Below are positions 9,560 to 33,635 of a stretch of 64,000 nt of DNA, piece after piece (the first letter of the stretch is position 1; every line of letters begins with the position of its first letter). This stretch comes from Stenotrophomonas sp. 24(2023) (GTDB lineage: Bacteria; Pseudomonadota; Gammaproteobacteria; Xanthomonadales; Xanthomonadaceae). The stretch covers positions 4,378,001-4,442,000 of the forward strand of contig NZ_CP133160.1 of assembly GCF_030913365.1 (NCBI RefSeq). Reading direction: 5' to 3'. The notes under the pieces were generated by a model that was not told where the DNA came from, did not search any database, and saw nothing but the letters and a program-made list of their open reading frames with translations. The position numbers were made by a program, and so were the translations under genes.

Positions 9560-9639
9560 TCTCACATTGACCGGATTTAGCGATATGTTGTCATTGTAAC
9601 GAGATTCGGCGCCCGGGGCGGCTGCCTACGATGGCGGCC

Positions 9640-11637: not shown

Positions 11638-11836
11638 CCTTTCCATCGATGGTGTGTTCATTCCCGGCCTGGTCAACGTCGCGGTGATCGCCCTGCTGCT
11701 GGCGCTGCTGGCAACGCGCGGCCTGGCGCGCCTGGGGCTGTACCGCGTGTTTGCCAACGGCCCGCTGGTCGGCCTGTCCCTGTTCGTGATTTTCACCGCG
11801 CTGCTCACCCGCTTCGCGCCCCTGCTCGAGAACTGA
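11627..11836 (+). CDS. DUF1656 (AaeX-like) small membrane protein
   Basis: The 69-aa protein has two membrane segments (VNVAVIALLLALLATRGLA and GLSLFVIFTALLTRF) and the family's conserved GVFIPG start. It overlaps the end of the FUSC gene by 11 bp and is preceded by GGAGG. Members always accompany AaeA/AaeB-type pumps; their role is unknown. Confidence 0.9.
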   Translation: MVPDLSIDGVFIPGLVNVAVIALLLALLATRGLARLGLYRVFANGPLVGLSLFVIFTALLTRFAPLLEN

Positions 11837-11837
11837 A

Positions 11838-12722
11838 ATGAAACCGATGCTCGTTGCCCTTGGCCGCTGGAGCGCCACGCTCTGCCTGTTTGCCCTGGCC
11901 GTGATTGCCGCACTGTCGATCTGGAACCGTTACGAGCGCCACCCGTGGACGCGTGATGGCCGTGTGCGTGCCGATGTGGTCCGCGTGGCCTCGGACCAGG
12001 GCGGGCTGGTCACCCAGGTACGGGTGCACGACAACCAGCGGGTCAGCGCCGGCCAGCTGTTGCTGGTGCTGGACCAGCCGCGCTTTGCCGCCGCACTGGA
12101 AAAGGCCGATGCGCGTGTCCGCAGCGCGCAGGCCACGCTGGCCCTGGCCCGCCGCGAATCCACGCGTGACATCGCCCTGGGCAACCTGGTGGCCGTGGAA
12201 ACCCGCGAACAGAACGCGGCCAGGGTCGATACCGAAGTTGCCGGGCTGGCGCAGGCACAGGCCGAACGGAACGTCGCACTGCTGAACCTGCAGCGCACCG
12301 AAGTGCGCGCCACCGCCGATGGCATCGTGACCAACCTGGACCTGCACCCGGGCGACTTCCTGCAGCCCGGTGCGCAGGCCATGGCACTGGTGGCCACCGG
12401 CAGCCTGCGCATCGAGGGCTACTTCGAGGAAACCAAGCTCAACTGCATCACCGAAGGCGACCCGGCAACGGCGCGGCTGATGGGCGATGCCCGCGACCTG
12501 CACGGGCAGGTGGAAAGCATCGCCGCCGGCATCGCCGATGACCAGCGTTCCAGCACGCACAACCTGTTGCCGGCGGTGGCACCCACCTATCAGTGGGTAC
12601 GCCTGGCCCAGCGCATTCCCGTGCGCATCCAGCTGGACGACGTGCCGCCGGACACCCGCCTGATCATCGGCCGCTCGGCCAGCGTCACGGTCACCCCCTC
12701 CCTGCAGGGGAACTGCAAGTGA
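11838..12722 (+). CDS. HlyD/AaeA-type periplasmic adaptor of the efflux pump
   Basis: The 294-aa protein has one N-terminal membrane anchor (SATLCLFALAVIAALSIW), a biotinyl-lipoyl-like domain (VASDQGGLVTQVRVHDNQRV), an alpha-helical hairpin, and a second lipoyl half (VRATADGIVTNLDLHPGDFL). It links the FUSC protein to the outer-membrane factor. Its stop overlaps the next start (GTGA). Confidence 0.92.
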   Translation: MKPMLVALGRWSATLCLFALAVIAALSIWNRYERHPWTRDGRVRADVVRVASDQGGLVTQVRVHDNQRVSAGQLLLVLDQPRFAAALEKADARVRSAQATLALARRESTRDIALGNLVAVETREQNAARVDTEVAGLAQAQAERNVALLNLQRTEVRATADGIVTNLDLHPGDFLQPGAQAMALVATGSLRIEGYFEETKLNCITEGDPATARLMGDARDLHGQVESIAAGIADDQRSSTHNLLPAVAPTYQWVRLAQRIPVRIQLDDVPPDTRLIIGRSASVTVTPSLQGNCK

Positions 12723-14158
12723 CGACCTGCCTGCGTCGCCTGGGCACGCTCGGCCTGGCGCTGTCGCTGGCCGGCTGCGTGTCCGGCCCGGACTACCACC
12801 TGCCCGCCAGTGCCGCTGCGGTGGCACCGGCAGCGCGCGGTGCCTTCGTCTCCGCCACCACGGCGGTCTCTACCCAGGCCGACCTGCCCGACCACTGGTG
12901 GCGGCTGTATGACGACCCGCAGCTGGAGGCCTACGTGGCCGAGGCGCTGCGCGCCAACACCGATCTGCGCGTGGCCGACGCCAACCTGCGCCGTGCCTCG
13001 GCACGGGTGCGGCAATCCCGGGCATACGGCGGGGTGGATACCGCCACGACGGCGTCGGCGACGTTCGCCGATGTCGGTGGCTACGCGCTGGCCACCACGT
13101 CGGTGCCCCAGGTCTATGCGCTGGGCATCACCTTGTCCTACCCGCTGGATCTGGCCGGCGGCATCCGCCGGGGCATCGAAGCGGCCAGCGCCGATGCCGA
13201 CGCCGTGGCCGCCGCACGCGACCATGTGCGGACGGCGGTGGCCGCAGCGGTCACCCGTGCCTATCTGGGCGCCTGTTCGGCCAACCGCACACTGGCCGCC
13301 ACGCAGCAGGTGCTGGACACACAGCGCGCCACGCTGGAGGCCACCACCCGGCTGGCAGCGGGGGGCCGCGGCACGGATTTCGATGTCAGCCGCGCGCGCG
13401 CCGCCGTGAACCGCGGCGCGGCGGCGTTGCCGCGCCTGGTGGCCGATCGGCAGGCGGCGGTATTCACCCTGGGCGCACTGATGGGCCGGCTGCCGGCCGA
13501 CGCCCCGCAGGCGGCGGCACGCTGCACGCAGCCACCGCAGCTTCGCCAGCCCATTCCGGTCGGCAACGGCTGGCAGCTGATCCAGCGCCGCCCGGACATC
13601 CGTGCCGCCGAACGCCAGCTGGCCGCCGCCACCGCGAGGATCGGGATCGAGACCGCCGACCTCTATCCGCAGGTCAGCATCGGTGCTTCGGCAGGGACCG
13701 CCGGTACGTTCAGGCGGCTGCTGTCCGGTGACAGCTTCGGCGCCACCTTCGGGCCGCTGTTGTCCTGGCACTGGCCGAACCGCACACTGGCCAAGGCACG
13801 CATCGATGCGGCCGGGGCCGATGCCGACGCCGCGCTGGCATCGTTCGACGGCACGGTGCTGCAGGCCCTGCGGCAGACCGAGAGTGCGCTGTCATCGTAT
13901 GCCCGGGAAATGGAGCGCGAGCAGAGCCTGGCCCGCGCCCGTGACGATGCCCGCCGTGCCAGTGCACAGGCCAGCAGGCTCTACCAGTCCGGCAAGATCG
14001 GCTTCCTGGACGTGCTGTCCGCGCAAGCCGCACTGGCCGACGCCGAATCGGCGCTGGAAGCCTCACGCGCACAATCGGCCGACCGCCAGGTGGACCTGTT
14101 CCTGGCACTGGGCGGGGGATGGTCGGCGATGGATGACGGGGCCGGGCACAGCCGATGA
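12719..14158 (+). CDS. NodT-family outer-membrane efflux lipoprotein
   Basis: The 479-aa protein starts at the GTG overlapping the adaptor gene. Its signal peptide ends in LAGC (lipidated Cys), followed by the family opening GPDYHLP. The two TolC-type repeats follow (DHWWRLYDDPQLEAYVAEAL, RRPDIRAAERQLAAATARIG). It provides the outer-membrane channel of the four-gene pump. Confidence 0.93.
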   Translation: MTTCLRRLGTLGLALSLAGCVSGPDYHLPASAAAVAPAARGAFVSATTAVSTQADLPDHWWRLYDDPQLEAYVAEALRANTDLRVADANLRRASARVRQSRAYGGVDTATTASATFADVGGYALATTSVPQVYALGITLSYPLDLAGGIRRGIEAASADADAVAAARDHVRTAVAAAVTRAYLGACSANRTLAATQQVLDTQRATLEATTRLAAGGRGTDFDVSRARAAVNRGAAALPRLVADRQAAVFTLGALMGRLPADAPQAAARCTQPPQLRQPIPVGNGWQLIQRRPDIRAAERQLAAATARIGIETADLYPQVSIGASAGTAGTFRRLLSGDSFGATFGPLLSWHWPNRTLAKARIDAAGADADAALASFDGTVLQALRQTESALSSYAREMEREQSLARARDDARRASAQASRLYQSGKIGFLDVLSAQAALADAESALEASRAQSADRQVDLFLALGGGWSAMDDGAGHSR

Positions 14159-18729: not shown

Positions 18730-19383
18730 ATGGCGAACGCAGCGCAGCCGGTCCTGGGTGGACCGGATTTCCTCCGCCTGCTCGCCCGTCTCAGCGACGG
18801 CGCGATGCCGGCCACCAGTCCCGCCCTGACCGATCGCCTCGGCCAGTGGGTGGACTGGAACCGTGCCGTCGCCCTGTCCGCCGCGCTGACCGGGCGCCTG
18901 CCCGAGCCCGGCGGAGCCGGCGAGGCGGCAGACGATGTGCTGGCCGACTGCGCCCAGGCCGAAGCCAGCCTGCAGGCATCGATCCACGACGATGCCGAAG
19001 CCGAGCGCCTGCTCGACCTTGCCGAAGCCGCCGCCGCACCGAATTTCGCCTCGCTGCGGCAACGCTACCTGGTGCTGCAGCGGGCCATCCAGACCGCCAC
19101 CGGGCGGCTGCGCGGGCGCCTGCGTGAGCAGCTGGTGCAGGTATCGCCCGCACTGGCGCGACTGGCCGAGGTCGATGCGGTGATGGAACAGACTCTCAGC
19201 CCGCGCGAACACGCGCTGCTGGCCACCGCGCCGGCAGTGCTGGGCACCCGCTTTGAACGCGTGCACGGCCAGCCCGGCTGGCGCGCGCCGTTCCGCCATG
19301 ACATGCGCAGCCTGCTGCTGGCCGAGCTTGAACTGCGCTTCCACCCGATCCACGGGCTGCTTGCGGCCCTGCGCTCCCACTGA
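18730..19383 (+). CDS. DUF3348 family protein, first gene of motor-like operon
   Basis: The 217-aa soluble, mostly helical protein has no signal peptide or membrane segment. It resembles the DUF3348 family (FLRLLARLSDG at the N terminus, HDMRSLLLAELELRFHPIHG near the C terminus). Members are known only from conserved clusters with DUF802, OmpA and DUF2894 proteins, as here. The gene ends 10 bp before the MotA/ExbB-like gene, so it is part of one operon. Biochemical function is unknown; it could be a cytoplasmic partner of the long coiled-coil tail. The family call is from memory of sequence and context. Confidence 0.8.
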   Translation: MANAAQPVLGGPDFLRLLARLSDGAMPATSPALTDRLGQWVDWNRAVALSAALTGRLPEPGGAGEAADDVLADCAQAEASLQASIHDDAEAERLLDLAEAAAAPNFASLRQRYLVLQRAIQTATGRLRGRLREQLVQVSPALARLAEVDAVMEQTLSPREHALLATAPAVLGTRFERVHGQPGWRAPFRHDMRSLLLAELELRFHPIHGLLAALRSH

Positions 19384-19393
19384 CCGGAACACC

Positions 19394-21625
19394 ATGTCCA
19401 GAACTGCATTCGCTGTCGTTGTTTTCCTTGTCGGGCTGCTGGCCGTGTGCTGGATCGGCATCGGCTATGTCGCGGTGCATCCGCTGGGGGCCGCCGTGGC
19501 GGCGGTCATCGCCGCCTGCTACATCACCGGTGGCGTGGAGCTGTACCGCTACCGGCAGGCCAGCAACGGCCTGCGCGCGGCACTGGGCGATCTTTCGGCT
19601 GCCAGCGAACGCCTGGCACCGTGGCTGGAGCGCGTGCCGGTGGGCCTGCGCAACGCCGTGCGCCTGCGCGTGGAAGGCGAGCGCACCGCCCTGCCCGGCC
19701 CGGTGCTGACCCCGTACCTGGTCGGCCTGCTGGTGCTGCTGGGCATGCTCGGCACCCTGCTGGGCATGATGGATACCCTGCGCGGCACCGGCCTTGCCCT
19801 GCAGAGCGCCACCGACATGGCCGCCATCCGCGGCTCGCTGGCCTCGCCGGTGCAGGGCCTGGCCGTGGCCTTCGGCACCTCGATCGCCGGCGTTGCCAGT
19901 TCGGCCATGCTGGGCCTGCTGTCGGCCCTGCTGCGCCGCGAGCGCCTGCAGGTGGTACAGCAGCTCGACCGCGCCATCGCCGGTGAACTGCACCCGTATT
20001 CACAGGCGTGGCAGCGCGCCGAGTCGCTGCGCCTGCTGCAGGCACAATCGGCCGCGCTGCCGGTGCTGGTGGACCGCCTGCAGGCGATGACCGCCGCGTT
20101 CGAACAGCACAGCACGGCAGCCAACGAACGCCTGCTGGCCGGCCAGGCCGACTTCCTCACCCAGAGCCAGGCGCTGCAGGAACGATTGGCGGTATCACTG
20201 CAGCAGTCGCTGCGCGACGGCGCCGAGGCCAGTGCCGCGGCCATCGGCGGTGCGCTGCAGCCGATGGCCGAAACCACGCTGGCTGGCCTGGCCCAGCATG
20301 GCCAGGCCCTGCATGCGCGCATCGAACAGGCGGTGCAGCAGCAGCTGACCGGCCTGGCCGACGGTTTCGAACGCAGCCGCACCGCCACCGAGGCCAGCTG
20401 GGCACGGGTGGTGGACGAACAGACCCGCGCACAGCAGACGCTGGTGGCCGATCTGCGCCAGCACCTGCACGCCTTCAGCGAAGGCCAGGGCGTACAGGCG
20501 CAGGCCCTGCTGGGCAGCATCGGTGAGCGTCTGCAGGCCGATGCCGAAGGCACGGCCGAGGCCTGGCGGACCGCCGCCGAGCGGCAGCAGGCGGTGAATC
20601 ACGCACTGATCGAGCGCCAGCAACAGGCGCTGCAGGCCACCGGGGCGCAGCTGGATGCCCGCGCCGAGGCCGTGCTGCAGGCGCTGGACGCACGCCATGC
20701 CAGCCTGCAGGCCCTGCTGCAGGAGCACGAACAGCAGCGCCAGCAGGAATGGCAGGCCGCGCAGGCCGCAAGCACCGGTGCACACCGCGAGCTGCAGGAC
20801 CACCTCGACGCCCGCGAACAACAGCGCCAGGCGCGCTGGGATGCCGCGGCGGCCGAACTGCAGCAGGCCCACGCCGCGCTGCAGGCGCAGCTGCAGGCCG
20901 GTGACGAACAGCGCCTGCAGCGCTGGAGCGATGCCCTGCAGGCCGTGTCGGCCGACCTGGCCACGCAGCAGCAGCAGGTCTGCGACGCGCTGGCACAGAC
21001 CGCGCAGCAGATCGGCGACAACGGCCGCGCCCAGGCCCAGGCCACCCTGGCCGAAGTATCGACCCTGCTGCAGACCGCCGCGGCCGCGCCGAAGGCCGCC
21101 GCCGATGTCATCAACGAGCTGCGCACCTCGCTGTCGGACAGCCTGGTACGCGACAACGCCATGCTGGAAGAGCGTGGCCACCTGCTGGCCACCGTGCAGA
21201 CGCTGCTGGACGCGGTCAACCATGCCTCGCATGAACAGCGCAGCGCAGTGGATGCCCTGGTCGGCGGCTCGGCCGAACTGCTGGAGCGCGTGGGCAGCCG
21301 CTTCACCGACCACATCAGCGCCGAGACCGGCAAGTTGGACGGCATCGCCGCACAGCTGGCTGGCAGTGCCGGTGATGTCGGCGAACTGGCCGGCAGGCTG
21401 GGCACGGCAGTGGCGCAGTTCGGCGCCGCCTCGACCGACCTGGCCGCGCGCCTGGAGCAGATCGGCGGCGCACTGGATGCCTCGCTGGCCCGCAGCGACG
21501 AACAGCTGGCCTACTACGTCGCCCAGGCCCGCGAAGTGGTCGACCTGAGCCTGCTCTCGCAGAAACAGGTGATGGAAGAACTGCAGCAGCTGGCCACGCG
21601 CCGCGGCAAGGCCGGCACCGCATGA
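19394..21625 (+). CDS. DUF802 family MotA/ExbB-like protein with very long coiled-coil tail
   Basis: The 743-aa protein has two N-terminal membrane helices (about 5-28 and 31-48), a cytoplasmic segment, and helices 3 and 4 at about 105-127 and 153-180. The MotA/TolQ/ExbB signature spans these last two (LLGMLGTLLGMMDTL, then SPVQGLAVAFGTSIAGVASS). The next roughly 550 residues are an Ala/Gln/Glu-rich coiled coil (for example LQEHEQQRQQEWQAAQAAST) predicted to project into the cytoplasm. MotA-type pentamers form the stator of ion-driven 5:2 motors. A long cytoplasmic tail is otherwise best known from ZorA of Zorya defence. The stop overlaps the MotB-like gene (ATGA). Confidence 0.85.
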   Translation: MSRTAFAVVVFLVGLLAVCWIGIGYVAVHPLGAAVAAVIAACYITGGVELYRYRQASNGLRAALGDLSAASERLAPWLERVPVGLRNAVRLRVEGERTALPGPVLTPYLVGLLVLLGMLGTLLGMMDTLRGTGLALQSATDMAAIRGSLASPVQGLAVAFGTSIAGVASSAMLGLLSALLRRERLQVVQQLDRAIAGELHPYSQAWQRAESLRLLQAQSAALPVLVDRLQAMTAAFEQHSTAANERLLAGQADFLTQSQALQERLAVSLQQSLRDGAEASAAAIGGALQPMAETTLAGLAQHGQALHARIEQAVQQQLTGLADGFERSRTATEASWARVVDEQTRAQQTLVADLRQHLHAFSEGQGVQAQALLGSIGERLQADAEGTAEAWRTAAERQQAVNHALIERQQQALQATGAQLDARAEAVLQALDARHASLQALLQEHEQQRQQEWQAAQAASTGAHRELQDHLDAREQQRQARWDAAAAELQQAHAALQAQLQAGDEQRLQRWSDALQAVSADLATQQQQVCDALAQTAQQIGDNGRAQAQATLAEVSTLLQTAAAAPKAAADVINELRTSLSDSLVRDNAMLEERGHLLATVQTLLDAVNHASHEQRSAVDALVGGSAELLERVGSRFTDHISAETGKLDGIAAQLAGSAGDVGELAGRLGTAVAQFGAASTDLAARLEQIGGALDASLARSDEQLAYYVAQAREVVDLSLLSQKQVMEELQQLATRRGKAGTA

Positions 21626-22287
21626 GCGATGACATCGAAGTCGACGGCGGATCGCACGCCCCCATCTGGGCCGCCTTCGGCGATCTGATGTCGGTGCTGC
21701 TGGGCGCGTTCGTGCTGATCCTGGTCGGCGTGGTCGCGGTGCAGCTGGAGCTGTCGCAGCGGCTGGAGGACGAGGTGAAGCAGCGCCAGGCCGAAGCCAA
21801 GCGCCTGCAGACCCTCGAACAGGCCCTGGCCGGCCCGCTCGCCGCCGGCCGGGTGACGCTGGTCGATGGCCGCATCGGCATCAGCGGCAGCGTGCTGTTC
21901 GCCCTCAATTCCGACCAGCTGCAACCGGAAGGCCAGGAGCTGCTGCGCAGCCTGGCCGCCCCGCTGGCCGCCTACCTGGGCAGCCGCGAAGAAATCCTGA
22001 TGGTCAGCGGCTTCACCGACGACGCCCCGATCCGCGATGGCAACCGCCGTTTCGCCGACAACTGGGAGCTGTCCGCACAGCGTTCGTTGACCGTCACCCG
22101 CACCCTGATCGCCGATGGCGTGCCCGCCGACGCGGTGTTTGCCGCCGCCTTCGGCAGCGAGCAGCCGGTCAGTTCCAATACCAGCGAAGACGGCCGCGCA
22201 CGCAACCGCCGCGTGGAGATCGCACCGATTGCCAAGCCCAAGGCGAATGCTGCCGCCGCCCGCCCCACGGCCACCGATGGCCACTAA
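21622..22287 (+). CDS. MotB/OmpA-like membrane protein of the motor-like operon
   Basis: The 221-aa protein has one N-terminal membrane helix containing Asp21 in the MotB-type pattern PIWAAFGDLMSVLLGAFVLI. In MotB, ExbD and ZorB the equivalent Asp carries the ion. A short coiled coil and an OmpA-like peptidoglycan-binding domain follow (VLFALNSDQLQPEGQELLRS, SGFTDDAPI, FGSEQPVSSNTSEDGRARNR). It would pair as a dimer with the MotA/ExbB-like pentamer encoded just upstream (4-nt overlap) and anchor it to the cell wall. Confidence 0.9.
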   Translation: MSDDIEVDGGSHAPIWAAFGDLMSVLLGAFVLILVGVVAVQLELSQRLEDEVKQRQAEAKRLQTLEQALAGPLAAGRVTLVDGRIGISGSVLFALNSDQLQPEGQELLRSLAAPLAAYLGSREEILMVSGFTDDAPIRDGNRRFADNWELSAQRSLTVTRTLIADGVPADAVFAAAFGSEQPVSSNTSEDGRARNRRVEIAPIAKPKANAAAARPTATDGH

Positions 22288-22663
22288 GCCCGCCGCCGAC
22301 AGCCTGCAGGCGCTGGTGCGTGATCTGGATACCGGATCGCGCGCGTTGCCGCACTACCCACACGTGCCGATGCTGGACGAGGCACGGCGCAGCTGGTCCG
22401 AACTGCGCAGCGAACTGCAGGTGCGCCGCTCGCTGCGCACCGAAGCCCCCGCCGACGGTGGCCCGCTGAATTCGGCCGTGCTGGTGCAGCGCATGCTCGA
22501 CACGATGCAGCAGGCCAGCCCCGGCTACCTGCGGCATTTCATCGATTACATCGACACCCTGTCGTGGCTGCAGGCACGGCAGGACAGCGCCGCCAGCGGC
22601 GCTGACGCACCGAAGCCCAAGCGCACGCGCAAGCCCCGCGCCGCCAAGGCCAGCGACGGTTGA
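22277..22663 (+). CDS. DUF2894 family protein
   Basis: The 128-aa soluble protein has the DUF2894 core GPLNSAVLVQRMLDTMQQAS, then PGYLRHFIDYIDTLSWL, followed by a basic tail (KPKRTRKPRAAK). It overlaps the OmpA-like gene by 11 bp and closes the operon. It appears shorter at the N terminus than the family members I recall. Function is unknown; the fixed company of DUF802 and OmpA proteins suggests a dedicated cytoplasmic partner. Confidence 0.85.
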   Translation: MATKPAADSLQALVRDLDTGSRALPHYPHVPMLDEARRSWSELRSELQVRRSLRTEAPADGGPLNSAVLVQRMLDTMQQASPGYLRHFIDYIDTLSWLQARQDSAASGADAPKPKRTRKPRAAKASDG

Positions 22664-22862: not shown

Positions 22863-23660
22863 ATGAAGGCCTTTACCCGTGCGGGTCTTGCCGCACTGCT
22901 GCTTGCCGCATGCCTGCCGGCATCGGCGCATACCCCCTACCTCGTGCCCAGCAGCTTCGCGCCGCGCGCCGGTAGCACCATTGCCCTGGACGCCTCGTTC
23001 GCCGAGACGTTCTTCGTGCCCGAAGTGGCCTTCGACAACAGCACCTTCGGTGTTGTCGGCCCGGACGGGAAGGACCAGGTGGTGCCGTCACGGGCCATGA
23101 CCAACCGGACGGTGGCCGAGTACACCCTCCCCGCAGGGGCGGGCACCTACCGGTTCAGCACGGGGCTGCGCATGGGCGCACTGTTCCGCACCTGGGAGAT
23201 CAACGGCACACGTGCAAGCTCGCGCGATCCGGCAGTGAAGATTCCCGCCGGTGCAAAGGTCATCGCCGACTTCCAGTCCATTACCCGCGCCGAAACCTAC
23301 GTCACCGCCGGCAACCCCGACCGCGCCGCGTTGAAGCCACGCGACAACGGGCTGGAGCTGGTCGCCGTCAGCCACCCCAATGATCTCTACGTGGGCGAGA
23401 CCTTCGCGTTCATCGTCCAGTACGACGGCCAGCCGCTGCCCGGGCAGAAGGTGGAGGTGACCGAGGCGGTATGGAGTTCGGACCGCACCCCGCAGGTGGT
23501 CACGCTCACCACCGACGCGCAGGGCCACGCACGCATGCCCCTGCAGGCCGCCGGTACCTGGATCGCGCTGACCCGATTGCGCAGGCCCGCCCCCGACGGC
23601 GCGCCCGTGGCCGAGTACAGCCACAGCTACACGCTCAGCTTCCGCGTCCTGAACCCCTAA
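22863..23660 (+). CDS. DUF4198 family periplasmic protein
   Basis: The 265-aa protein has a signal peptide (LAALLLAACLPASA) and then HTPYLVPSSFAPRAG, the DUF4198 opening. A C-terminal immunoglobulin-like region follows (FAFIVQYDGQPLPGQKVEVT, TTDAQGHARMPLQAAGTWIA). Relatives are found beside metal-uptake genes (Ni/Co and iron). It is the first gene behind a Fur-like box, so a periplasmic role in metal acquisition is inferred. Confidence 0.85.
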   Translation: MKAFTRAGLAALLLAACLPASAHTPYLVPSSFAPRAGSTIALDASFAETFFVPEVAFDNSTFGVVGPDGKDQVVPSRAMTNRTVAEYTLPAGAGTYRFSTGLRMGALFRTWEINGTRASSRDPAVKIPAGAKVIADFQSITRAETYVTAGNPDRAALKPRDNGLELVAVSHPNDLYVGETFAFIVQYDGQPLPGQKVEVTEAVWSSDRTPQVVTLTTDAQGHARMPLQAAGTWIALTRLRRPAPDGAPVAEYSHSYTLSFRVLNP

Positions 23661-23689
23661 TCCCCCCCTTCGTACCTGTCGAGGTTGTC

Positions 23690-24598
23690 ATGAAACGCTC
23701 CCTGCTCATCGGCGCCTGCGCCGGTGCCCTGCTGCTGTCCGCCGTCGCCGCTGCCGAGTCGCCTGCCACCCACCCACGGCCGCTGGTCGGTGGCCACGGC
23801 AACAACGTGCAGGCCTTCATTGCCGAATTCGACGACAACGGCGATGGCAAGGTCACCTGGGCCGAGTTCGAGGCCTTCCGCCGCGCCCGTTTCGATGCCA
23901 CCGACTACGACCACAACGGCACGCTGGACGAGGACGAGTACGTGCGTGAGTTCAGCGAGCGCATGGCTGCGGAGGTCGAACGCGAGCGCGCAGGCCTGAT
24001 GGAGCAGGCGCGCAGCCGCTTCGCCCAGCTGGGCCCCGGCACGGACGGCCTGGTATCGCGCTCCGCGTTCGATGCGGCCGGCGAAAAGACCTGGCAGGCC
24101 GCGCAGAAGCGGCTGGCCAGCCAGGACCGCACCGGCACGCCAGCGGCACGCGGCACCGAGCGGACCGCCGCCGGCGCGCAGCGCTTCGACAACGGCCCGC
24201 GCAGCCGCCTGAACCTGCCGAGCAGCCACAGCGCCGAAGGCTTCCTCGAACTGTACGACAGCAATGGCGACGGCACGGTGGACAAGGCCGAGTTCCAGCG
24301 CGTGCGCGATGCGCAGTTCACCCGCACCGACAGCAACGGCGATGGCCGCCTGAGCGCCAACGAGTACCTGGCCGAGTTCGAGAGCCGCATCGACCGCCGC
24401 GCCGCCACGCTGGACCAGGGCGAGGATCGCCAGGCGCATGTGCGCTTCGGCGTGCTGGATGCGGACAAGGACGGGGCGATGACCTTCGCCGAGTACCAGG
24501 TGTCCGGCAAGCGCCTGTTCGACACGGCCGACCGCAACAAGGACGGTGTCGTCGATGCGGCCGACGCCGCCCTGCCGGCCCCCGCCCCACGCCGCTGA
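23690..24598 (+). CDS. Secreted EF-hand protein with six calcium-binding-type loops
   Basis: The 302-aa protein has a signal peptide (GACAGALLLSAVAAA) and six EF-hand-type loops: DDNGDGKVTWAEF, DYDHNGTLDEDEY, YDSNGDGTVDKAEF, TDSNGDGRLSANEY, DADKDGAMTFAEY and ADRNKDGVVDAAD. The first two pairs are canonical; the last is truncated. It is probably periplasmic and binds Ca2+ or another divalent ion. It sits in an operon with DUF4198, ApbE and a TonB receptor. Confidence 0.9.
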   Translation: MKRSLLIGACAGALLLSAVAAAESPATHPRPLVGGHGNNVQAFIAEFDDNGDGKVTWAEFEAFRRARFDATDYDHNGTLDEDEYVREFSERMAAEVERERAGLMEQARSRFAQLGPGTDGLVSRSAFDAAGEKTWQAAQKRLASQDRTGTPAARGTERTAAGAQRFDNGPRSRLNLPSSHSAEGFLELYDSNGDGTVDKAEFQRVRDAQFTRTDSNGDGRLSANEYLAEFESRIDRRAATLDQGEDRQAHVRFGVLDADKDGAMTFAEYQVSGKRLFDTADRNKDGVVDAADAALPAPAPRR

Positions 24599-24607
24599 CG
24601 CACGCAG

Positions 24608-24629
24608 GGCGCCTGCAATGGCAGGCGCC
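24608..24629. repeat. Perfect intercistronic hairpin
   Basis: GGCGCCTGC-AATG-GCAGGCGCC forms a perfect 9-bp stem 10 bp after the EF-hand stop, in the 126-bp gap before apbE. With no T-run it is more likely an mRNA stability or partial-termination element than a full terminator. Confidence 0.6.
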
Positions 24630-24724
24630 ATCGCGCCCCCGTTACCGCCCATGGACCGGGATCACCCGCGGCAACGCCGGCCAACGGCCTGCCGCACCAC
24701 CGCGTGCGTGCCCGAGACCGCCCC

Positions 24725-26185
24725 ATGTATCGCCTTGCTTCCCGCCTGCTGTTGAGCGCCACCACCGGTCTGGCCCTGCCGCCGGCGTCAGCGGATGCAC
24801 CTGCCAGCTTCCACCGCGACGACGTGCTGGGTACCTCGCTCGACCTTGCCGTCGAGGCTGCACCCGCCGACGCCGACACGGCACTGCAGGCCGTGCTTGC
24901 CGAGGTCACCCGGCTTGACGGCATCCTGAGCCGCTGGCACGAAGACAGCGAGCTGGCGCGCTTCAACGCCAGCACCACCCCGCAGCACCTGTCACCGGAC
25001 CTGCGTGCCGTGCTGGGGCTGTGCGAGACGTGGCTGGCACGCACGGAGGGCATGTTCAGCTGCAGGCTCGGCCTGCCGGCGGCGCGCTGGCGCGCGGCGG
25101 CAGCATCCGGGGTGTTGCCCGCACGCGAGGAAATGCGCGCACTGGCAGCCGCAGCACGCGACGCCGAGGTGGTGATCGACACCGCCGGGCCGGTCAGCCG
25201 ACCGGCCAGCGTTGTCTTCGATATCGACGGCGTGGCCAAGGGCTACATCCTCGACCGGGCGCTGGAAGCGGCGCGCGCCGCCGCACCGGCCGCCACCGCC
25301 ATCAAGCTCGATATCGGCGGCGATGCCGTGTACTGGCAGGCCGCCGGCCATGCGGCCCCCTGGATGGTGGGCGTGGCCGACGCACGCCTGCCGCGCGACA
25401 ACGGCCAGCCACTGGCCGCGCTGGCCCTGCACAACCGCGCCATCGCCGCCAGTGGCCACGCCACCCGTGGCTACCAGGTCGGGTACCGCCGCTACAGCCA
25501 CATCCTTGACCCGTTCTCCGGCTGGCCGATGCAGTTCGCACCGGCAGCAACCGTCACCGCTGCCGATGCCGCGACCGCCGATGCGCTGGCCACCACCCTA
25601 TCGGTGATGCCGATCCGCGATGGCATCGCGCTGGCCGACCAGCTGCCGCAGGTCGCCGCTTTCATCCTCAGCGATACCGGCACGTCATTCATCTCCCGGG
25701 CATGGCCCACCCTGCTGGCAGACGCGCCGGTACGTACCACCGACGAACAGCATCTGGTGGTGGAGTACCAGATTCCACCGCAGGCCACGGCGATGTACCA
25801 CGCACCGTACCTGGCGATGTGGATCGCCGGCGCGGACGGCGCACCGCTGCGGCAGTTGCTGGTGCTCGGTGACCGTTCGCGCTACCTGCACGAACTGCCG
25901 CAATGGTGGCGCCGGTATGGCAAGGACGATCTGCCGGCGATCCAGGGCATGGCCCGCCCCACCCGCCTTCCCGGGCAGTACACGGTGGCCTGGGATGGCC
26001 GCGATGACCGCGGCCGGGCCCTGCCCGCCGGGCACTACCTGCTGCAGATGGAAGCCGCCCGCCAGGGTGGCGGACACGAATACCTGTCCGTGCCGGTCGT
26101 GCTGCACCCGGACCGCACGGTGGACCAGCAACAGCAAGGCCAGACCGAGATCGGGCAGGTCCGCGTGCGCTCCACCGCGCGCTAG
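24725..26185 (+). CDS. ApbE FAD:protein FMN transferase fused to a DUF2271 domain
   Basis: The 486-aa protein has a signal peptide and an ApbE domain (about 30-320; FDIDGVAKGYILDRALEAAR, IKLDIGGDAVYW, SHILDPFSGWP, ADALATTLSVM). A C-terminal DUF2271 domain follows (PGQYTVAWDGRDDRGRALPA, GHYLLQMEAARQGGGHEYLS). ApbE attaches FMN to a Thr or Ser of periplasmic flavoproteins. DUF2271 proteins are normally separate, linked to flavin-dependent iron reduction. The fusion sits in a Fur-type operon with a TonB receptor, so it probably serves periplasmic ferric reduction. Confidence 0.88.
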   Translation: MYRLASRLLLSATTGLALPPASADAPASFHRDDVLGTSLDLAVEAAPADADTALQAVLAEVTRLDGILSRWHEDSELARFNASTTPQHLSPDLRAVLGLCETWLARTEGMFSCRLGLPAARWRAAAASGVLPAREEMRALAAAARDAEVVIDTAGPVSRPASVVFDIDGVAKGYILDRALEAARAAAPAATAIKLDIGGDAVYWQAAGHAAPWMVGVADARLPRDNGQPLAALALHNRAIAASGHATRGYQVGYRRYSHILDPFSGWPMQFAPAATVTAADAATADALATTLSVMPIRDGIALADQLPQVAAFILSDTGTSFISRAWPTLLADAPVRTTDEQHLVVEYQIPPQATAMYHAPYLAMWIAGADGAPLRQLLVLGDRSRYLHELPQWWRRYGKDDLPAIQGMARPTRLPGQYTVAWDGRDDRGRALPAGHYLLQMEAARQGGGHEYLSVPVVLHPDRTVDQQQQGQTEIGQVRVRSTAR

Positions 26186-26291
26186 CCCGCCCCCTGCCCC
26201 CCTTCTTCCCAGCGACGCACACCGGCCACCCGATGGCACCCCGCAGCCAGGAATGCATCCCCGCCCTTCCCTCCTTCCTGCGGAGTTACCC

Positions 26292-28667
26292 ATGAGACTG
26301 CACCCCTCCCTGCTTGCACTGGCGGTCGCCAGCAGCATCGCAACCCCACTGACCACGCGTGCGGCCGCCGCCGACGCCGATGCCGCCAGCACCCTCGATA
26401 CGATCCACGTAACGGAAACCCGGAAGAAGTCCGACACCCAGAACGTCACCCGGCTCTCGGCCCGCACCCTGCAGCAGCAGGGCGCACAGAGCATGGACGA
26501 TGCCATCCGCTACGTCCCCGGCGTGGAAATGGTCGATCTGGGCCGTGCCGGCTTCAATGGCTTCAACATCCGCGGGCTGGAAGCCGACCGGGTGGCGATC
26601 ACCCTGGATGGCCTGAGCTTCCCGCAGAGCCTGGACCCCGGCTCCTACCAGCCCTATGAATTCTTCCGCTCCGGCCGTGGCAGCGTCGATCTGGAAGCGG
26701 TGAAGAGCGTGGAGATCATCAAGGGGGCCGATGCCATCACCGCCGGCAGCGGCGCACTCGGTGGCGCGGTGATGTTCACCACCAAGGACCCGGCCGACTT
26801 CCTCAAGGCCACCGGCAACGACAGCTTCGGCTCGGTCAAGTATGGCTATACCGGCTCCAGCAGCGAGAACATGGGGTCATTGACGTTCGCCAACCGCACC
26901 GGCCGTTTCGAGTCGCTGCTGGTCTATACCCGGCGCGACGGCCACGAGACCGAGGGGTGGTATGACACCACCGATGCACTGCTCGGCCCGGACCGGCGCA
27001 CGCCCGACCCGATGGACCGCCGCAGCGACAACCTGTTGGCCAAGGTGAACTTCCTGGCCACGGGCACGCAGACGCTGGGTGTCATCTACGAACGCGCACG
27101 CGCCACCAATGACATCGACAACTGGACCCGCAGCGATGGCGTCGGCTCGTACTACTTCCGCAGTGCCGTCGACCGCAGCGACCGCGACCGTTATGGGTTG
27201 AAGTACACCTGGAAGGCAGGCAACGCCCTGTTCGACAGCCTGGAAGCCACCGCCGACTACCAGAAGAACTACATCCAGGGGCAGACCAACGTGCAGGTCG
27301 CCAACGGCACCGCTGCGACCTACGGCACGCGGTGTTCGACGACGGCGCTGTGCTCGCGCCAGGAAAACCGCTGGGATACGCAGAAGCGCAACCGCGTCGC
27401 GCTGGACTTCGACAAGCAGGTGGACACTGGCGGCCTGCACCACGACCTGGTCTACGGTGCGGCCTGGCAGCAGGCGAAGATCCACTGGAACTCGGTGGAC
27501 TCGCGCTGGGGCAACACCGGCACCCTGTACAGCCGGGAAACCGATCCCTCGCTGTGGCCGGACACCCGTGAAACGGACCTGACCGCCTACCTGCGTGATC
27601 GGGTGCGCCTGCTGGATGATCGCCTGTCGCTGACCGGCGGCGTGCGCTATGACAGCTACAAGTACGTGCCGCAGACCGCGACCACCGGCAATGGCCAGTC
27701 CGGCTACCAGGACAAGGCCGGCAGCGTGGGAACGTCCCGTTTCTCCTCGCCCACCTGGAACCTGGGCACGGAGTTCAAGCTGACCGACGCCAACTCGCTG
27801 TGGGCCCAGGTCGGGCGTGGCTTCCGCGCACCGGGGGTGAATGACATGTACGGCAGTTCCTCGACCACGCAGATCACGCGCGTGTCCGATGGCGCGACCG
27901 TCACCGTGGCCGATGGCCGCAGCAACCCGGACCTGGACGCCGAGCGCAGCCTCAACCTGGAACTGGGCTGGCGCTACCAGAGCGATCGCCTGCGCCTGGG
28001 TGTTTCGGCCTTCCGTGACAAGTACAGCAACTTCATCGACAGCGCGCAGTTCGTGGCCGACGCTGGCACCGCCTACAGCAAGATCGTCGGCGGCAAGCCG
28101 GTGGTGACCGACGGCTACACCTACACCATGCCGATCAACCGTGGCGAGGTCGTGGTCAAGGGCGTGGAAGTGGAAGGCATGTGGCTGCTGGCCGATGACT
28201 GGCTGGCCCGCGTCGCCTATTCGTACAACGAAGGCAAGGACAACGATGGCCAGCCACTGGCCAGCATCATCCCGGCCAAGGCCGTGGCCGGCCTGACCTA
28301 CACCGCACCGTCGCGCCGCTGGAGCCTGACCGCCAACGTCACCCACCAGGACCGCAAGGACCCGGCCGACTATGGCAAGAGCGTGACCAACAGCAGCTAC
28401 GGCGCCGAGGTCGTGCCGGTGTACGCCAGCAAGGCCCGCGAATACACGCTGCTGGACATCTTCGGCAGCTACGACCTGACCCCCAGACTGCACCTGACCG
28501 CCGGTGTCTACAACGTGTTCGACAAGGAGTACTACCTGTGGAACCGCGTACGCACGGCCGGTGCCGGCACCGCGATCTTCCAGGGTGCCACCAGCGCCGT
28601 GGGCATCGGCCGCTGGTCGCAGCCGGGCCGCAACGTGCGCTTCACCGTCAGCTATGACTTCCTCTGA
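26292..28667 (+). CDS. TonB-dependent receptor, heme/hemoglobin-type
   Basis: The 791-aa outer-membrane protein has a signal peptide, TonB-box region (LDTIHVTETRKK), plug (MDDAIRYVPGVEMVDLG, FNIRGLEADRVAITLDGLSF) and a 22-strand barrel ending in an aromatic residue (VRFTVSYDFL). The GLEADRVAITLDG plug pattern is that of HmuR/HemR-type receptors. One extracellular loop has a Cys pair (CSTTALC). It is the last gene of the Fur-type operon with ApbE-DUF2271. The ligand is inferred to be heme or an iron complex. Confidence 0.88.
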   Translation: MRLHPSLLALAVASSIATPLTTRAAAADADAASTLDTIHVTETRKKSDTQNVTRLSARTLQQQGAQSMDDAIRYVPGVEMVDLGRAGFNGFNIRGLEADRVAITLDGLSFPQSLDPGSYQPYEFFRSGRGSVDLEAVKSVEIIKGADAITAGSGALGGAVMFTTKDPADFLKATGNDSFGSVKYGYTGSSSENMGSLTFANRTGRFESLLVYTRRDGHETEGWYDTTDALLGPDRRTPDPMDRRSDNLLAKVNFLATGTQTLGVIYERARATNDIDNWTRSDGVGSYYFRSAVDRSDRDRYGLKYTWKAGNALFDSLEATADYQKNYIQGQTNVQVANGTAATYGTRCSTTALCSRQENRWDTQKRNRVALDFDKQVDTGGLHHDLVYGAAWQQAKIHWNSVDSRWGNTGTLYSRETDPSLWPDTRETDLTAYLRDRVRLLDDRLSLTGGVRYDSYKYVPQTATTGNGQSGYQDKAGSVGTSRFSSPTWNLGTEFKLTDANSLWAQVGRGFRAPGVNDMYGSSSTTQITRVSDGATVTVADGRSNPDLDAERSLNLELGWRYQSDRLRLGVSAFRDKYSNFIDSAQFVADAGTAYSKIVGGKPVVTDGYTYTMPINRGEVVVKGVEVEGMWLLADDWLARVAYSYNEGKDNDGQPLASIIPAKAVAGLTYTAPSRRWSLTANVTHQDRKDPADYGKSVTNSSYGAEVVPVYASKAREYTLLDIFGSYDLTPRLHLTAGVYNVFDKEYYLWNRVRTAGAGTAIFQGATSAVGIGRWSQPGRNVRFTVSYDFL

Positions 28668-28685
28668 GACGGGCGCTGGCATTGC

Positions 28686-28706
28686 CGTGGGCGCACCCTG
28701 CCCACG
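28686..28706. terminator. Hairpin after the receptor gene
   Basis: CGTGGGC (28686-28692) and GCCCACG (28700-28706) form a perfect 7-bp stem with a 7-nt loop, 19 bp after the receptor stop. No T-run follows. It may end the Fur-type operon. Confidence 0.5.
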
Positions 28707-28820
28707 CTGAGCCATCGGCACCCCCGCTCCGGTCCGTGGCACGCCCTGCGTGCCCGGGCCTTGCAGACAGGCATGAGGGCTGCGGCGGACACCGCAGGTC
28801 TGGCCGCACGAATGCTTAAC

Positions 28821-28838
28821 GTGTCACCAGACAGTCAT
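28821..28838 (+). promoter_or_regulatory. Pho-box-like direct repeat upstream of the receptor-phytase operon
   Basis: GTGTCAC-CAGA-CAGTCAT shows two 7-bp direct repeats with the 11-bp periodicity of PhoB sites (consensus CTGTCAT-N4-CTGTCAT), each half matching about five of seven positions. It is 133 bp before a TonB receptor gene that is followed by a phytase-like enzyme. The rest of the 300-bp gap 28668-28970 holds only the hairpin at 28686-28706. Confidence 0.55.
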
Positions 28839-28970
28839 CGAAAAGGCGCACCCTTTTCACGCTGACGCAAGGCGGCTGCCGCCACCGCGTCACACCTGCC
28901 GTTTCCCCTCCCTGGTTCCCTGAGCTCCGCGCCCGCACGCGGTGGCTCGCACCTGCCTGAGTGATCGACC

Positions 28971-31289
28971 ATGAACAAGACGTTGTTGGCCGTTGCGTTG
29001 TCTGTTGTCCTGACATCCACGGCCCTGGCGCAGGACGCTGCCCCGACCTCCGGCGGCACCACCGCCACCGACCTGGATGCCGTGTCGGTGATCGGCAGCG
29101 GCGAGGCCCGCCAGGTGCAGCGCATCACCCGTGAAAACCTCGACATCCTGCCGCCGGGCACCAGCCTGCAGAAGACGCTGAACCTGCTGCCGGGTGTCAA
29201 CGCACAGTCGGCCGATGCGCTGGGCACCAACGAGCAGTCGATGACCCTGAGCCTGCGTGGCTTCAATTCCACCCGCCTGGGCTACACGCTCGATGGCGTG
29301 CCGCTGGGCGATGGCGCCTACAACAACTACAACGGCCTGACCATCAACCGCGCCCTGATCAGCGAGAACATGGCCGGCGCCGAACTGGCCGTGGGCATCG
29401 GCAGCCTGGGCACGCCCTCCACCAGCAACCTGGGCGGCACGATCTCCTACACCTCCGACCGCCCGGCCAAGGAACGGGGCGGGCGCCTGGTGCAGACCTT
29501 CGGCAGCGATGCCAACCGCCGCACCTCCGTGCGCGTGGACAGCGGCGAGTACAACGGCTTCTCCGGCTACGTGTCCGGCATGAACGCCGTCTCGGACCTG
29601 TGGAACGACCAGACCGCCTACAACAGATCCACGACCCGGCAGTTCAACGCCAAGGGCGTGTGGAACTTCGGGCGGGGCCAGGTGACCGGTTTCGTCGATA
29701 CCTCGCGCACCAGCCAGGCCGACTACTTCTACCTGTCCAAGGATGCGATGGCCCGCGGGCTGGGCTGGGACTGGGGCGGCTATGCACCGGACTGGAACAA
29801 GGCCGTGGCCAAGGCGTACTGCAACACCGCCAGCTTCAACGCGGCCAGGTGCGATGCCAGCGGCCCGGACAAGGATGCCGATGGCGCCTTCACCGCCGGC
29901 CAGATCCTGCGCGATGACAACCTGTACTACCTGGCCGGCGATTTCTTCGTGGCCGACGGCTTCACCGTGCGTGCGCTGGCCTATCATCACGACGATCGTG
30001 GCGAAGGCCACAACTGGAACAGCGGCGCGTACTCCAACAAGGGCACCGCGCAGGAAATCCCGATCATCTTCCGCAACACCATCTACACCATCGACCGCGA
30101 TGGCGGCACGCTTTCCTTCGACTGGGAACTGGGTGCGCACCGCATCGAAGGTGGTGTCTGGTACGAGCGCAACACCAGCAGCGCCGAACGCTACCAGACG
30201 GCGGTGGATGGCCCACGCGACCTGAGCGGCATGAACACCCTGCCTTCTGACGTCGGCGTGTTCGCCCAGCGCACCCGCTGGAAGACCCACCAGGTCTTCC
30301 TGAAGGACACCTGGCGCCTGCTGGATGACCGGCTGACGCTGGAATTCGGTGCCAAGAGCCCGCATGCCACCTCCGATGCGCAGGCCCTGCCGGGCGATGC
30401 GAAGACCCCGATTGCAGCCACCTCCAACAACCAGTTCGCCACCGGCTCGCTGAAGGCCAGCAAGAACCTGCTGCCCAGCGTGGGCGCCAATTTCCGCCTG
30501 GCCGACCACCACGAGGTGTTCGCCAGCTACGCCGAGAACATCGCGATGTTCCAGGGCGGATTCAAGCTGGGGCCGCAGGCGGTCAGCCAGGCCACTTGGA
30601 ATGCGCAGGGCGACCTGAAGCCGGAAGAATCGCGCTCGCTGGAAGCCGGCTACCGCTTCGTGGGCGATACCGTGCAGGCCTCCGTGGCTGCCTATACGGT
30701 GCGCTTCGACAACCGCCTGCTGCAGTACAACCCCTGCGACTCGCGCCAGCCGGTCGGCCCCACCTGCGGCAACCGCTTCTACAACGTGGGCGGCGTGGAC
30801 AGCCGCGGCGCGGAGTTCACCGTGCTGTGGACCCCGAACGCCCATTTCAGCTGGTACACCTCGGCCTCGCTGAACCGTTCGACCTACGCATCGAACTACG
30901 TGCAGGCCGGCGTGGAGCAGCAGATCAAGGGCAAGATCCAGACCGACACCCCGCAGCGCCTGCTGGCCACGGAACTGACCTGGCGCAACAACGGCTGGTT
31001 TGCCACCCTGCGCGGCAAGTACACCGGCGAGCGCTTCTACACCTACACCAACGACCAGGGCTTCGGTGGCTTCACGGTGTTCGACCTGGCCGGCGGCTAC
31101 GATCTGGGCCGCGTCGGCTTCGCCAAGGCTGTGCGCCTGTCCTTCAACGTGACCAACCTGACCGACAAGCGCTACGCCAGCAACCTGGATTCGAGCGTGT
31201 TCGCACCCAGCGATCCGGCCGGCAAGCTGTACGTGTTCCATGCGTCGGCGCCGCGCCAGGTGTTCGGCTCCATCGACGTACGCTTCTGA
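28971..31289 (+). CDS. TonB-dependent receptor, probably for an organophosphate
   Basis: The 772-aa protein has a signal peptide (AVALSVVLTSTALA), TonB-box region (DLDAVSVIGSGEARQVQRIT), plug (LQKTLNLLPGVNAQSADALG, LSLRGFNSTRLGYTLDGVPL) and a barrel ending QVFGSIDVRF. Calcium-like Asp residues appear in an extracellular loop (DASGPDKDADGAF). It is followed after 22 bp by a phytase-like hydrolase and preceded by a Pho-box-like repeat. Uptake of phytate or its products under phosphate limitation is therefore inferred. Confidence 0.9.
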   Translation: MNKTLLAVALSVVLTSTALAQDAAPTSGGTTATDLDAVSVIGSGEARQVQRITRENLDILPPGTSLQKTLNLLPGVNAQSADALGTNEQSMTLSLRGFNSTRLGYTLDGVPLGDGAYNNYNGLTINRALISENMAGAELAVGIGSLGTPSTSNLGGTISYTSDRPAKERGGRLVQTFGSDANRRTSVRVDSGEYNGFSGYVSGMNAVSDLWNDQTAYNRSTTRQFNAKGVWNFGRGQVTGFVDTSRTSQADYFYLSKDAMARGLGWDWGGYAPDWNKAVAKAYCNTASFNAARCDASGPDKDADGAFTAGQILRDDNLYYLAGDFFVADGFTVRALAYHHDDRGEGHNWNSGAYSNKGTAQEIPIIFRNTIYTIDRDGGTLSFDWELGAHRIEGGVWYERNTSSAERYQTAVDGPRDLSGMNTLPSDVGVFAQRTRWKTHQVFLKDTWRLLDDRLTLEFGAKSPHATSDAQALPGDAKTPIAATSNNQFATGSLKASKNLLPSVGANFRLADHHEVFASYAENIAMFQGGFKLGPQAVSQATWNAQGDLKPEESRSLEAGYRFVGDTVQASVAAYTVRFDNRLLQYNPCDSRQPVGPTCGNRFYNVGGVDSRGAEFTVLWTPNAHFSWYTSASLNRSTYASNYVQAGVEQQIKGKIQTDTPQRLLATELTWRNNGWFATLRGKYTGERFYTYTNDQGFGGFTVFDLAGGYDLGRVGFAKAVRLSFNVTNLTDKRYASNLDSSVFAPSDPAGKLYVFHASAPRQVFGSIDVRF

Positions 31290-31311
31290 CCCGCGCCCAG
31301 GACCTGCCCCG

Positions 31312-32787: not shown

Positions 32788-32802
32788 CCCGGCAGATGTT
32801 CC

Positions 32803-32829
32803 GGTAGCGCCAGGCCCGGCCTGGCGGAT
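32803..32829 (+). repeat. GTAG palindromic repeat, CCAGGC variant
   Basis: GTAG followed by CGCCAGGCC and GGCCTGGCG in inverted orientation, located 15 bp after the phytase stop in the convergent gap with entA. It has the same head as the other GTAG repeats in the window but a different palindrome core. Confidence 0.6.
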
Positions 32830-32870
32830 GCACCACCGCGCCTGCCATGACAGGCCACGGTGTGCTGGAC

Positions 32871-33635
32871 TCAGCCGCGCAGCGTGGCGCCGCCATCCAC
32901 GTACAGGTCACTCATCGCCACATGCCCGGCCTGCTCGCTCAGCAGGAACATCACCGCGTTGGCGATGTCCTCCGGCGTGGCCAGCTTGCGCAGGGGAATG
33001 CCTGCCTTGTAGGTGTCCAGGCTGCCATCGATCACCCGTTGCACGCCCTGCCCGTCCTCCCACATCCCGGTCTGCATCGGGGTCAGGGTCGAGCCCGGGG
33101 CCACGATGTTGCAGCGGATGCCCAAGGGCGCCAGCTCCAGCCCGAGGCAGCGGGTGAACATCGTCGCGGCGGCCTTCGACGCGGCATAGGCCGCCATGCC
33201 ATGGCGCGGGACGCCAGCGGCGTTGGAGCTGACCACCACCAGTGCGCCCTCGCGGCGCGGTGACATCACCCGCGCCAGGGCGCGGCCCAGATGGAACACG
33301 CCATCGGCATTGACCGCGAACACCTGCCGCCAGTCCTCATCCCGCGTGTCCTGCACCGCGCCCACGTGCAGCACGCCGGCCACGCTGGCAGCCAGCCCGA
33401 TCGGTCCCAGTGACTCCTCCACCAGATCCACGAACGCATCCACGGCCGCGGCATCGCGCACGTCCAGTGCAAAGGCATGTACCCGCCCCTGCGCTGCATC
33501 GACCCTCGGCACGTGGCGATCGGTCGCCACCACCACGCAACCCGCCGCCGCCAGCTGCCCGACCAAGGCGGCGCCAATGCCACCGCCCGCCCCTGTCACC
33601 AGCGCGATGCGCCCCGCAAATCCGCTCAGCTGCAT
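32871..33635 (-). CDS. entA: 2,3-dihydro-2,3-dihydroxybenzoate dehydrogenase
   Basis: The 254-aa short-chain dehydrogenase has the Rossmann motif [19 protein letters not shown], the Asp for NAD specificity (ATDRH), the catalytic Ser (VVVSSNAA) and Y-x3-K ([11 protein letters not shown]). It oxidises 2,3-dihydro-DHB to 2,3-dihydroxybenzoate in the cytoplasm. Its start overlaps the entF end by 10 bp, making it the last gene of the siderophore operon. Confidence 0.92.

Follow-up and report, generated by a model that had tools for sequence, protein, structure and literature searches.

The question raised by four tightly packed genes in a 64-kb stretch of Stenotrophomonas DNA (the whole of which we call the window) is whether they encode an uncharacterised motor-like machine, as the initial annotation proposed, or a system already described, and what such a machine might do for its host. 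The genes lie on the plus strand at 18730–22663, and both these coordinates and the coupling of zorA to zorB by 4 nt, an ATGA overlap, are as the annotation had them; zorB and DUF2894 overlap by 11 nt, the latter starting with the ATG at 22277.

18730–19383, + strand: DUF3348 gene, 217 aa (Pfam PF11828, 206 bits; PADLOC PDLC00658, 256 bits)
19394–21625, + strand: zorA (type III), motor and long tail, 743 aa (PADLOC PDLC00647, 1028 bits over residues 1–742; DUF802, 41 bits)
21622–22287, + strand: zorB (type III), one TM helix and an OmpA-type domain, 221 aa (PADLOC PDLC00651, 380 bits; Pfam OmpA, 65 bits)
22277–22663, + strand: DUF2894 gene, 128 aa (Pfam PF11445, 89 bits; PADLOC PDLC00654, 202 bits)

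The PADLOC models for Zorya type III cover the four proteins nearly end to end, and on these matches we identify the operon as Zorya type III, a known anti-phage motor system. Type III was named by Payne et al. in 2021 (PMC8565338), who counted 6,401 instances and reported that the type III genes of S. nitritireducens DSM 12575, placed in E. coli BL21-AI, reduced plaquing by at least one tested phage; the same system protected E. coli in liquid culture against phage PVP-SE1 at low multiplicity (PMC8565338). The word "uncharacterised" must thus be given up: anti-phage activity of such a system has been in print since 2021, and a homologous cluster with a described function, which the annotation itself had named as what would speak against its proposal, is found in the Stenotrophomonas type III system of that paper. 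The present operon and the tested one both come from Stenotrophomonas and have the four domains side by side; they do not differ in kind. A predicted Zorya III operon of B. cenocepacia K56-2 is reported to change the expression of its first gene or first two genes under phage infection; the direction of the change is not given, and the operon is not counted there among the systems called transcriptionally active. The names of the two soluble proteins are swapped between sources, DUF3348 being ZorF and DUF2894 ZorG in the papers (PMC8565338 among them) and DUF3348 being ZorG and DUF2894 ZorF in PADLOC-DB 2.0.

The further claim that the operon is not canonical Zorya is borne out insofar as the operon and the scanned neighbours lack ZorC, ZorD and ZorE: the 10 neighbours in the window gave no PADLOC match, the ZorC, ZorD and ZorE models included, and neither an HNH family nor the ZorE model was found in the operon or the scanned neighbours with Pfam and PADLOC. 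With Zorya type I (ZorABCD) the operon shares a long-tailed ZorA, the aspartate and OmpA domain of ZorB and a polar ring of Thr and Thr-Ser, but ZorC and ZorD were not found among the four proteins and 10 neighbours here, Phe131 stands where ZorB1 has a histidine, and the defence genes seen near five type I loci are mostly not found near the type III loci scanned. With type II (ZorABE) it shares the ZorAB core, DUF3348 and DUF2894 taking the place of ZorE. By coordinates, all four genes keep their order in 56 of the 59 loci of the genus sample and in 76 of 80 named loci; in the remaining three and four, respectively, the operon runs past the contig end, and the counts include two imperfect loci, G055 with a shortened zorA and L149 with DUF3348 cut by the contig start. 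In G055 and in the MAG L087, zorA encodes only 595 aa and is followed by a gap before zorB; either the gene is broken or the assembly is at fault.

The motor part was dissected by hydropathy and alignment, and the following features were placed on it:

19394–20068, + strand: ZorA residues 1–225, membrane motor part (mean conservation 0.71, n=77 sequences; hydropathy)
19754–19756, + strand: codon of ZorA Thr121 in TM3, a polar-ring position by analogy (alignment)
19877–19882, + strand: codons of ZorA Thr162-Ser163 in TM4, polar-ring positions by analogy (alignment)
21682–21684, + strand: codon of ZorB Asp21, an ion-path residue by analogy (D in 81/81 aligned ZorB3)
21895–22209, + strand: ZorB OmpA-type domain, residues ~92–196 (Pfam, alignment)

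Hydrophobic stretches are seen in ZorA at about 5–23, 30–48, 108–126 and 158–180 and once in ZorB, at 22–40, while DUF3348 and DUF2894 have none; together with ZorB Asp21, the OmpA domain and the PADLOC matches to ZorA3 and ZorB3, this agrees with the MotAB- or ZorAB-like layout proposed for the pair. The MotA/ExbB signature claimed for ZorA stands in part, the Pfam MotA_ExbB match of 18.7 bits lying below the cut-off of 22.9 and the motor signature thus being sub-threshold by Pfam alone, with the PADLOC ZorA3 model matching at 1028 bits. The annotation had suggested looking at the conservation of Asp21 and of the TM3/TM4 residues, and both are firmly kept: Asp21 is invariant, and it and the polar residues of TM3/TM4 are retained in 97–100% of aligned homologues. 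On the motor operon, then, the annotation was right and on "uncharacterised" wrong, which leaves it partly supported overall.

The polar residues also hint at the driving ion. Thr121 is a threonine in all five ZorA1 proteins aligned and in five of the six own-genome paralogues of the MotA/ExbB family, whereas the TM4 Thr-Ser is present in the four ZorA3 and five ZorA1 proteins aligned; the six paralogues keep a T at the second position but have A, M or C at the first, so that ZorA3 has, like ZorA1, one hydroxyl more than they do. According to PMC11890865, Na+ sits at a Ser/Thr ring in type I, and type II is without the additional polar residue needed for Na+. By analogy, the shared hydroxyl and the published difference between types I and II make Na+ the likely driving ion of type III ZorAB. 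In the peptidoglycan-binding part, the position of the ZorB1 histidine, which ZorB I needs for peptidoglycan binding (PMC11890865), is Phe131 in ZorB3, with F in at least 97% of 81 sequences; ZorB3 keeps NRR, the NW-LS motif together with the Arg behind it, and an Asp that follows the His position, the mapping to mutated ZorB I residues being our own.

Could the pair simply be a motor of the flagellar or TolQR/ExbBD type, unrelated to Zorya? The 5:2 motors MotAB/PomAB, TolQR and ExbBD have the same membrane stator layout and conserved Asp, and the B subunit leans their way: its OmpA domain resembles the MotB, MotD and PRK09039 models and solved MotB domains, and a ZorB3 profile scores 18–39 bits on ZorB1 but more on an own-genome OmpA protein (60) and another OmpA protein (54), so that the B subunit alone is insufficient for placement. 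ZorA differs from those motors in its long tail and its MotA_ExbB score below the Pfam cut-off, and its motor profile tells the families apart: five ZorA1 proteins score 14–26 bits (a 172-aa ZorA1 fragment 3.9), and none of the eight MotA/ExbB family proteins encoded in the genome exceeds 5.5 bits. By this measure ZorA3 is closer to the ZorA of Zorya I than to the MotA/ExbB family proteins of its own genome, which argues against close kinship with TolQ or ExbB; no flagellar, exbB/tonB or tol gene turned up when 19 ORFs of the operon and its neighbourhood were scanned with Pfam, though there are two TonB-dependent receptors downstream, and flagellar MotAB was set aside on the missing flagellar genes among scanned neighbours and the sub-threshold MotA_ExbB match. 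With the PADLOC type III models matching the four proteins over nearly their whole length, we find an unrelated flagellar or Tol-type pair hardly credible.

The tail of ZorA divides into two regions of opposite character:

20069–20968, + strand: ZorA residues 226–525, variable tail spacer (conservation, length variation, repeats)
20501–20935, + strand: 29-residue repeats, residues ~370–514 (Trp453, 482 and 511 at a spacing of 29)
20969–21622, + strand: ZorA residues 526–743, conserved tail tip (conservation, with a peak at 701–725)

Across 77 ZorA3 sequences, mean conservation is 0.71 in residues 1–225 and 0.64 in the last 225, and it falls to 0.10 in the lowest 25-residue block of the spacer, whose length ranges from 252 to 655 residues among 11 sequences measured. 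Internal repeats, scored as present when exceeding 1.5 times the best of ten shuffles, were found in 119 of 132 spacers, close relatives included. In the tail, a spacer built of repeats and variable in length thus separates the conserved motor from a conserved tip. In the window, ZorA has two prolines after residue 225 and its spacer a hydrophobic period of 3.66, which would suit a long coiled coil; at 0.15 nm per residue, some 540 residues would give a tail of about 80 nm. The best repeat periods took nine values (22, 29, 40, 51, 55, 62, 87, 102 and 131), each at most 0.11 turn away from an integral number of helix turns if a turn has 3.64 residues; none of 3000 random sets of nine such values fitted as well, nor, with 87 and 102 removed, did any of 3000 random sets of seven, part of the whole-turn fit being expected for any coiled coil. 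Periods so near to whole helix turns suggest that the tail lengthens and shortens by units that preserve its helical phase, and a length-tolerant drive shaft that passes twist to the tip fits these patterns better than a ruler does. The annotation's idea of the tail as a transmission element gains from this arrangement of spacer, motor and tip, and in types I and II a structured tail is reported to be important for function (PMC11890865). The model makes a structural prediction: a rod of in-register repeats with about 3.64 residues per turn and a docking tip.

What the tip would dock to is presumably to be sought among the two soluble proteins. DUF3348 is modelled as all-helical with good confidence (pLDDT 87, pTM 0.82), the model of DUF2894 is poor (pLDDT 74, pTM 0.39), and fold searches gave no significant match for either. 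A lead comes from the C terminus of DUF2894:

22586–22660, + strand: basic C-terminal tail of DUF2894 (last 25 residues, net +5)

A net charge of at least +4 in the last 25 residues recurs in 76 of 79 DUF2894 homologues, whereas the corresponding counts are 1 of 80 in ZorA, 33 of 80 in ZorB and 0 of 77 in DUF3348, and from this basic tail we infer that DUF2894 likely binds nucleic acid. The window carries the short form of the protein, without the N-terminal segment of most homologues: DUF2894 measures 122–142 aa in the named loci of the S. maltophilia complex and 190–292 aa, with the extra segment, in most others, and is also short (110–148 aa) in L093, L134, L138 and L153.

These two proteins are central to another reading, by which DUF3348 and DUF2894 would hold ZorAB shut until a phage opens the channel, bringing on depolarisation and abortive infection. 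Payne et al. (PMC8565338) suggested that the two DUF proteins regulate ZorAB and brought up the idea of a proton channel, and a gated leak suits the finding that neither Pfam nor fold searches detected a nuclease or helicase in DUF3348 or DUF2894. Such a leak has no role for the distant tip, though the tip is conserved nearly as well as the motor (0.64 and 0.71), and it sits poorly with the functional importance of a structured tail described for types I and II in PMC11890865; we consider it distinctly unlikely. A tail that transmits rotation, on which our preferred reading builds, would give the tip a function.

The distribution of the operon is where type III departs from expectation. In a sample of one genome per species, ZorB3 (threshold >350 bits) was present in 59 of 61 Stenotrophomonas genomes, and the two without it, G007 and G028, are sisters in the gyrB tree, so that a single loss suffices; in the same 61 genomes, gyrB was recovered in 60 and HsdR above its cut-off in 15. 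In the genus to which G066, Xanthomonas bonasiae FX4 and Xanthomonas sp. AmX2 belong, 19 of 20 genomes have ZorB3. The Zorya tree, built with FastTree on zorB, the zorA motor and DUF3348 from 55 of the 59 genomes (G050 was left out for a gyrB below threshold, and G015, G016 and G042 for incomplete genes), correlates with gyrB at a Mantel r of 0.88, a value reached by 0 of 2000 permutations. Among 29 genomes of the S. maltophilia complex (dS 0.24–0.47 versus 0.29 for gyrB), median dN/dS was 0.051 for zorB and 0.065 for gyrB, followed by 0.092 for the ZorA motor, 0.093 for the tip, 0.116 for DUF2894, 0.156 for DUF3348 and 0.172 for the ZorA spacer; zorB is thus the only part as constrained as gyrB, the others lying at 0.092–0.172. 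The upstream 4-kb flanks of 30 complex genomes form one single-linkage cluster, and by the downstream flank they form two, with the window on its own; among the 11 named loci of the complex, the downstream flank is common to all 110 ordered pairs and the upstream one to 72 of them. GC content, 0.713 in the operon versus 0.690 in the 5 kb on either side, is close enough to the flanks that composition gives no sign of recent import, and ARAGORN found no tRNA in the 64-kb window. Judged from these comparisons, in Stenotrophomonas the operon behaves like a fixed, largely vertically inherited core operon and not like an exchangeable defence island, a status that appears limited to Stenotrophomonas and, probably, Xanthomonas.

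Its surroundings are in keeping with this. We scanned for defence models 133 ORFs flanking 15 loci of Dyella, Rhodanobacter and Luteibacter, and 123 of the 138 listed ORFs flanking 15 loci of Stenotrophomonas, Xanthomonas, Pseudoxanthomonas and Paraburkholderia; both sets gave few and mostly generic matches, with one strong AbiLi, and the scanned flanks of the type III operon thus hold mostly ordinary genes. Flanks of Zorya I (36 ORFs at five loci in four genomes) gave matches to type I restriction, ZacA/B/C and SoFic, a comparison that rests on small samples and approximate ORF calls, the Zorya I flanks having been scanned without their Zorya genes and with ORFs called by a different rule.

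Such constancy invites the suspicion that we are looking at a housekeeping envelope motor of Stenotrophomonas and Xanthomonas that passes the state of the cell wall to the nucleoid or to growth, the protection of E. coli being a by-product of expression from a plasmid. Occurrence in 59 of 61 species with one apparent loss, purifying selection on zorB like that on gyrB and mostly ordinary neighbours all suit such a motor, as does the scarcity of mobile carriers: zorB had no blastn match in 5,426 E. coli genomes, a search of viral contigs with two peptide patterns gave no confirmed relative, none of 10 matching phage records covered 80% of ZorB, and in plasmids ZorB3 was found in 27 of 72,556 records, every one a replicon of at least 366 kb. 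Against it stands the published protection of E. coli from at least one phage on plates and from PVP-SE1 in liquid (PMC8565338), and outside the core genera the operon's behaviour suits a dispensable system better. ZorB3 occurs in 44 of 149 genomes and 17 of 54 genera of the family sample and in 10 of 369 genomes of the class sample (ZorA1 in 4 of 369); within genus g197, it is present in 7 of 18 genomes, or 6 of the 11 more complete ones, with ZorA1 in 1 of 18. Position varies as well: no ordered pair of Dyella loci shares a flank on either side (0/42), and 2 of 30 do so in Rhodanobacter and Luteibacter, whereas the 132 pairs of Xanthomonas include 78 that share the upstream and 42 that share the downstream flank, and in Paraburkholderia and relatives the figures are 72 and 52 of 240; the deeper clades of Stenotrophomonas likewise differ in their flanks. 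Patchy presence and unshared flanks indicate that the system moves between lineages and sites. Speaking also against a purely core reading, PLSDB predicts 7 of the 27 plasmid records to be mobilizable (and 20 non-mobilizable). Even within the genus, the Zorya tree recovers only 18 of 36 well-supported gyrB splits, and 16 of its own 35 well-supported splits conflict with well-supported gyrB splits; G003 looks like a case of transfer: the Zorya tree puts it with G029 and G051, the gyrB tree with G024 and G034. On balance, we regard a housekeeping motor as rather unlikely, and we would put forward with equal reserve its fuller version, in which a core envelope motor has been filed as defence on account of its blocking phages in E. 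coli, its phase-locked repeat shaft reporting the state of the wall in everyday life to a DNA-associated DUF3348/DUF2894 and defence being just one use of that signal.

The reading that we favour, and hold to be probable though far from secure, is that Zorya III is a motor-driven, built-in immunity that acts through its tail and is core in Stenotrophomonas, possibly with an everyday role besides; a fixed core operon is best seen as built-in immunity and not as an exchangeable island. Beyond the anatomy, which we observe, every step of the mechanism is our extrapolation, partly from types I and II. The stator would consist of five ZorA and two ZorB subunits and probably be driven by Na+. Where the cell wall is disturbed, ZorB would grip the peptidoglycan, ions would flow and ZorA would rotate; the tail of about 80 nm would carry the twist to the tip as a phase-locked drive shaft, and the tip may engage DUF3348, which together with DUF2894 would act, with no nuclease involved, on DNA entering the cell or on the nucleoid.

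What is new here is the core status, the repeat-built tail, the conserved tip, the polar ring like that of Zorya I and the basic tail of DUF2894. A 2025 paper describes the distribution of the three Zorya types as typical of anti-phage systems (PMC11890865), a statement that fails for type III in Stenotrophomonas, where the operon is core. If this status is confirmed, either motor-driven immunity is standard equipment in these bacteria or a housekeeping motor has been misfiled as defence. The core status also raises the question of an everyday role in Stenotrophomonas.

Some smaller observations concern the window and the genome collections. L092 (JAHREJ010000010.1), titled Bacillus subtilis, holds a Stenotrophomonas-like Zorya III locus with a ZorB 81% identical and is probably a mislabelled or mixed assembly. 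The genome has a second MotA/ExbB and OmpA pair outside the window (G000:C1:3999476-4000736), which we take for the PRK09039 type. At 22863–28667 of the window, genes for DUF4198, EF-hand, ApbE and TonB-receptor proteins separate the operon from what are the directly downstream genes in several relatives, a block either inserted in the window or lost in the relatives. A possible siderophore cluster lies further along, at 26292–37537: besides an NRPS whose domains are condensation, adenylation, carrier and thioesterase, it has a phytase-like gene and two TonB-dependent receptors. Upstream of the operon, at 9631–14158, FUSC, HlyD-like and outer-membrane efflux genes follow one another.
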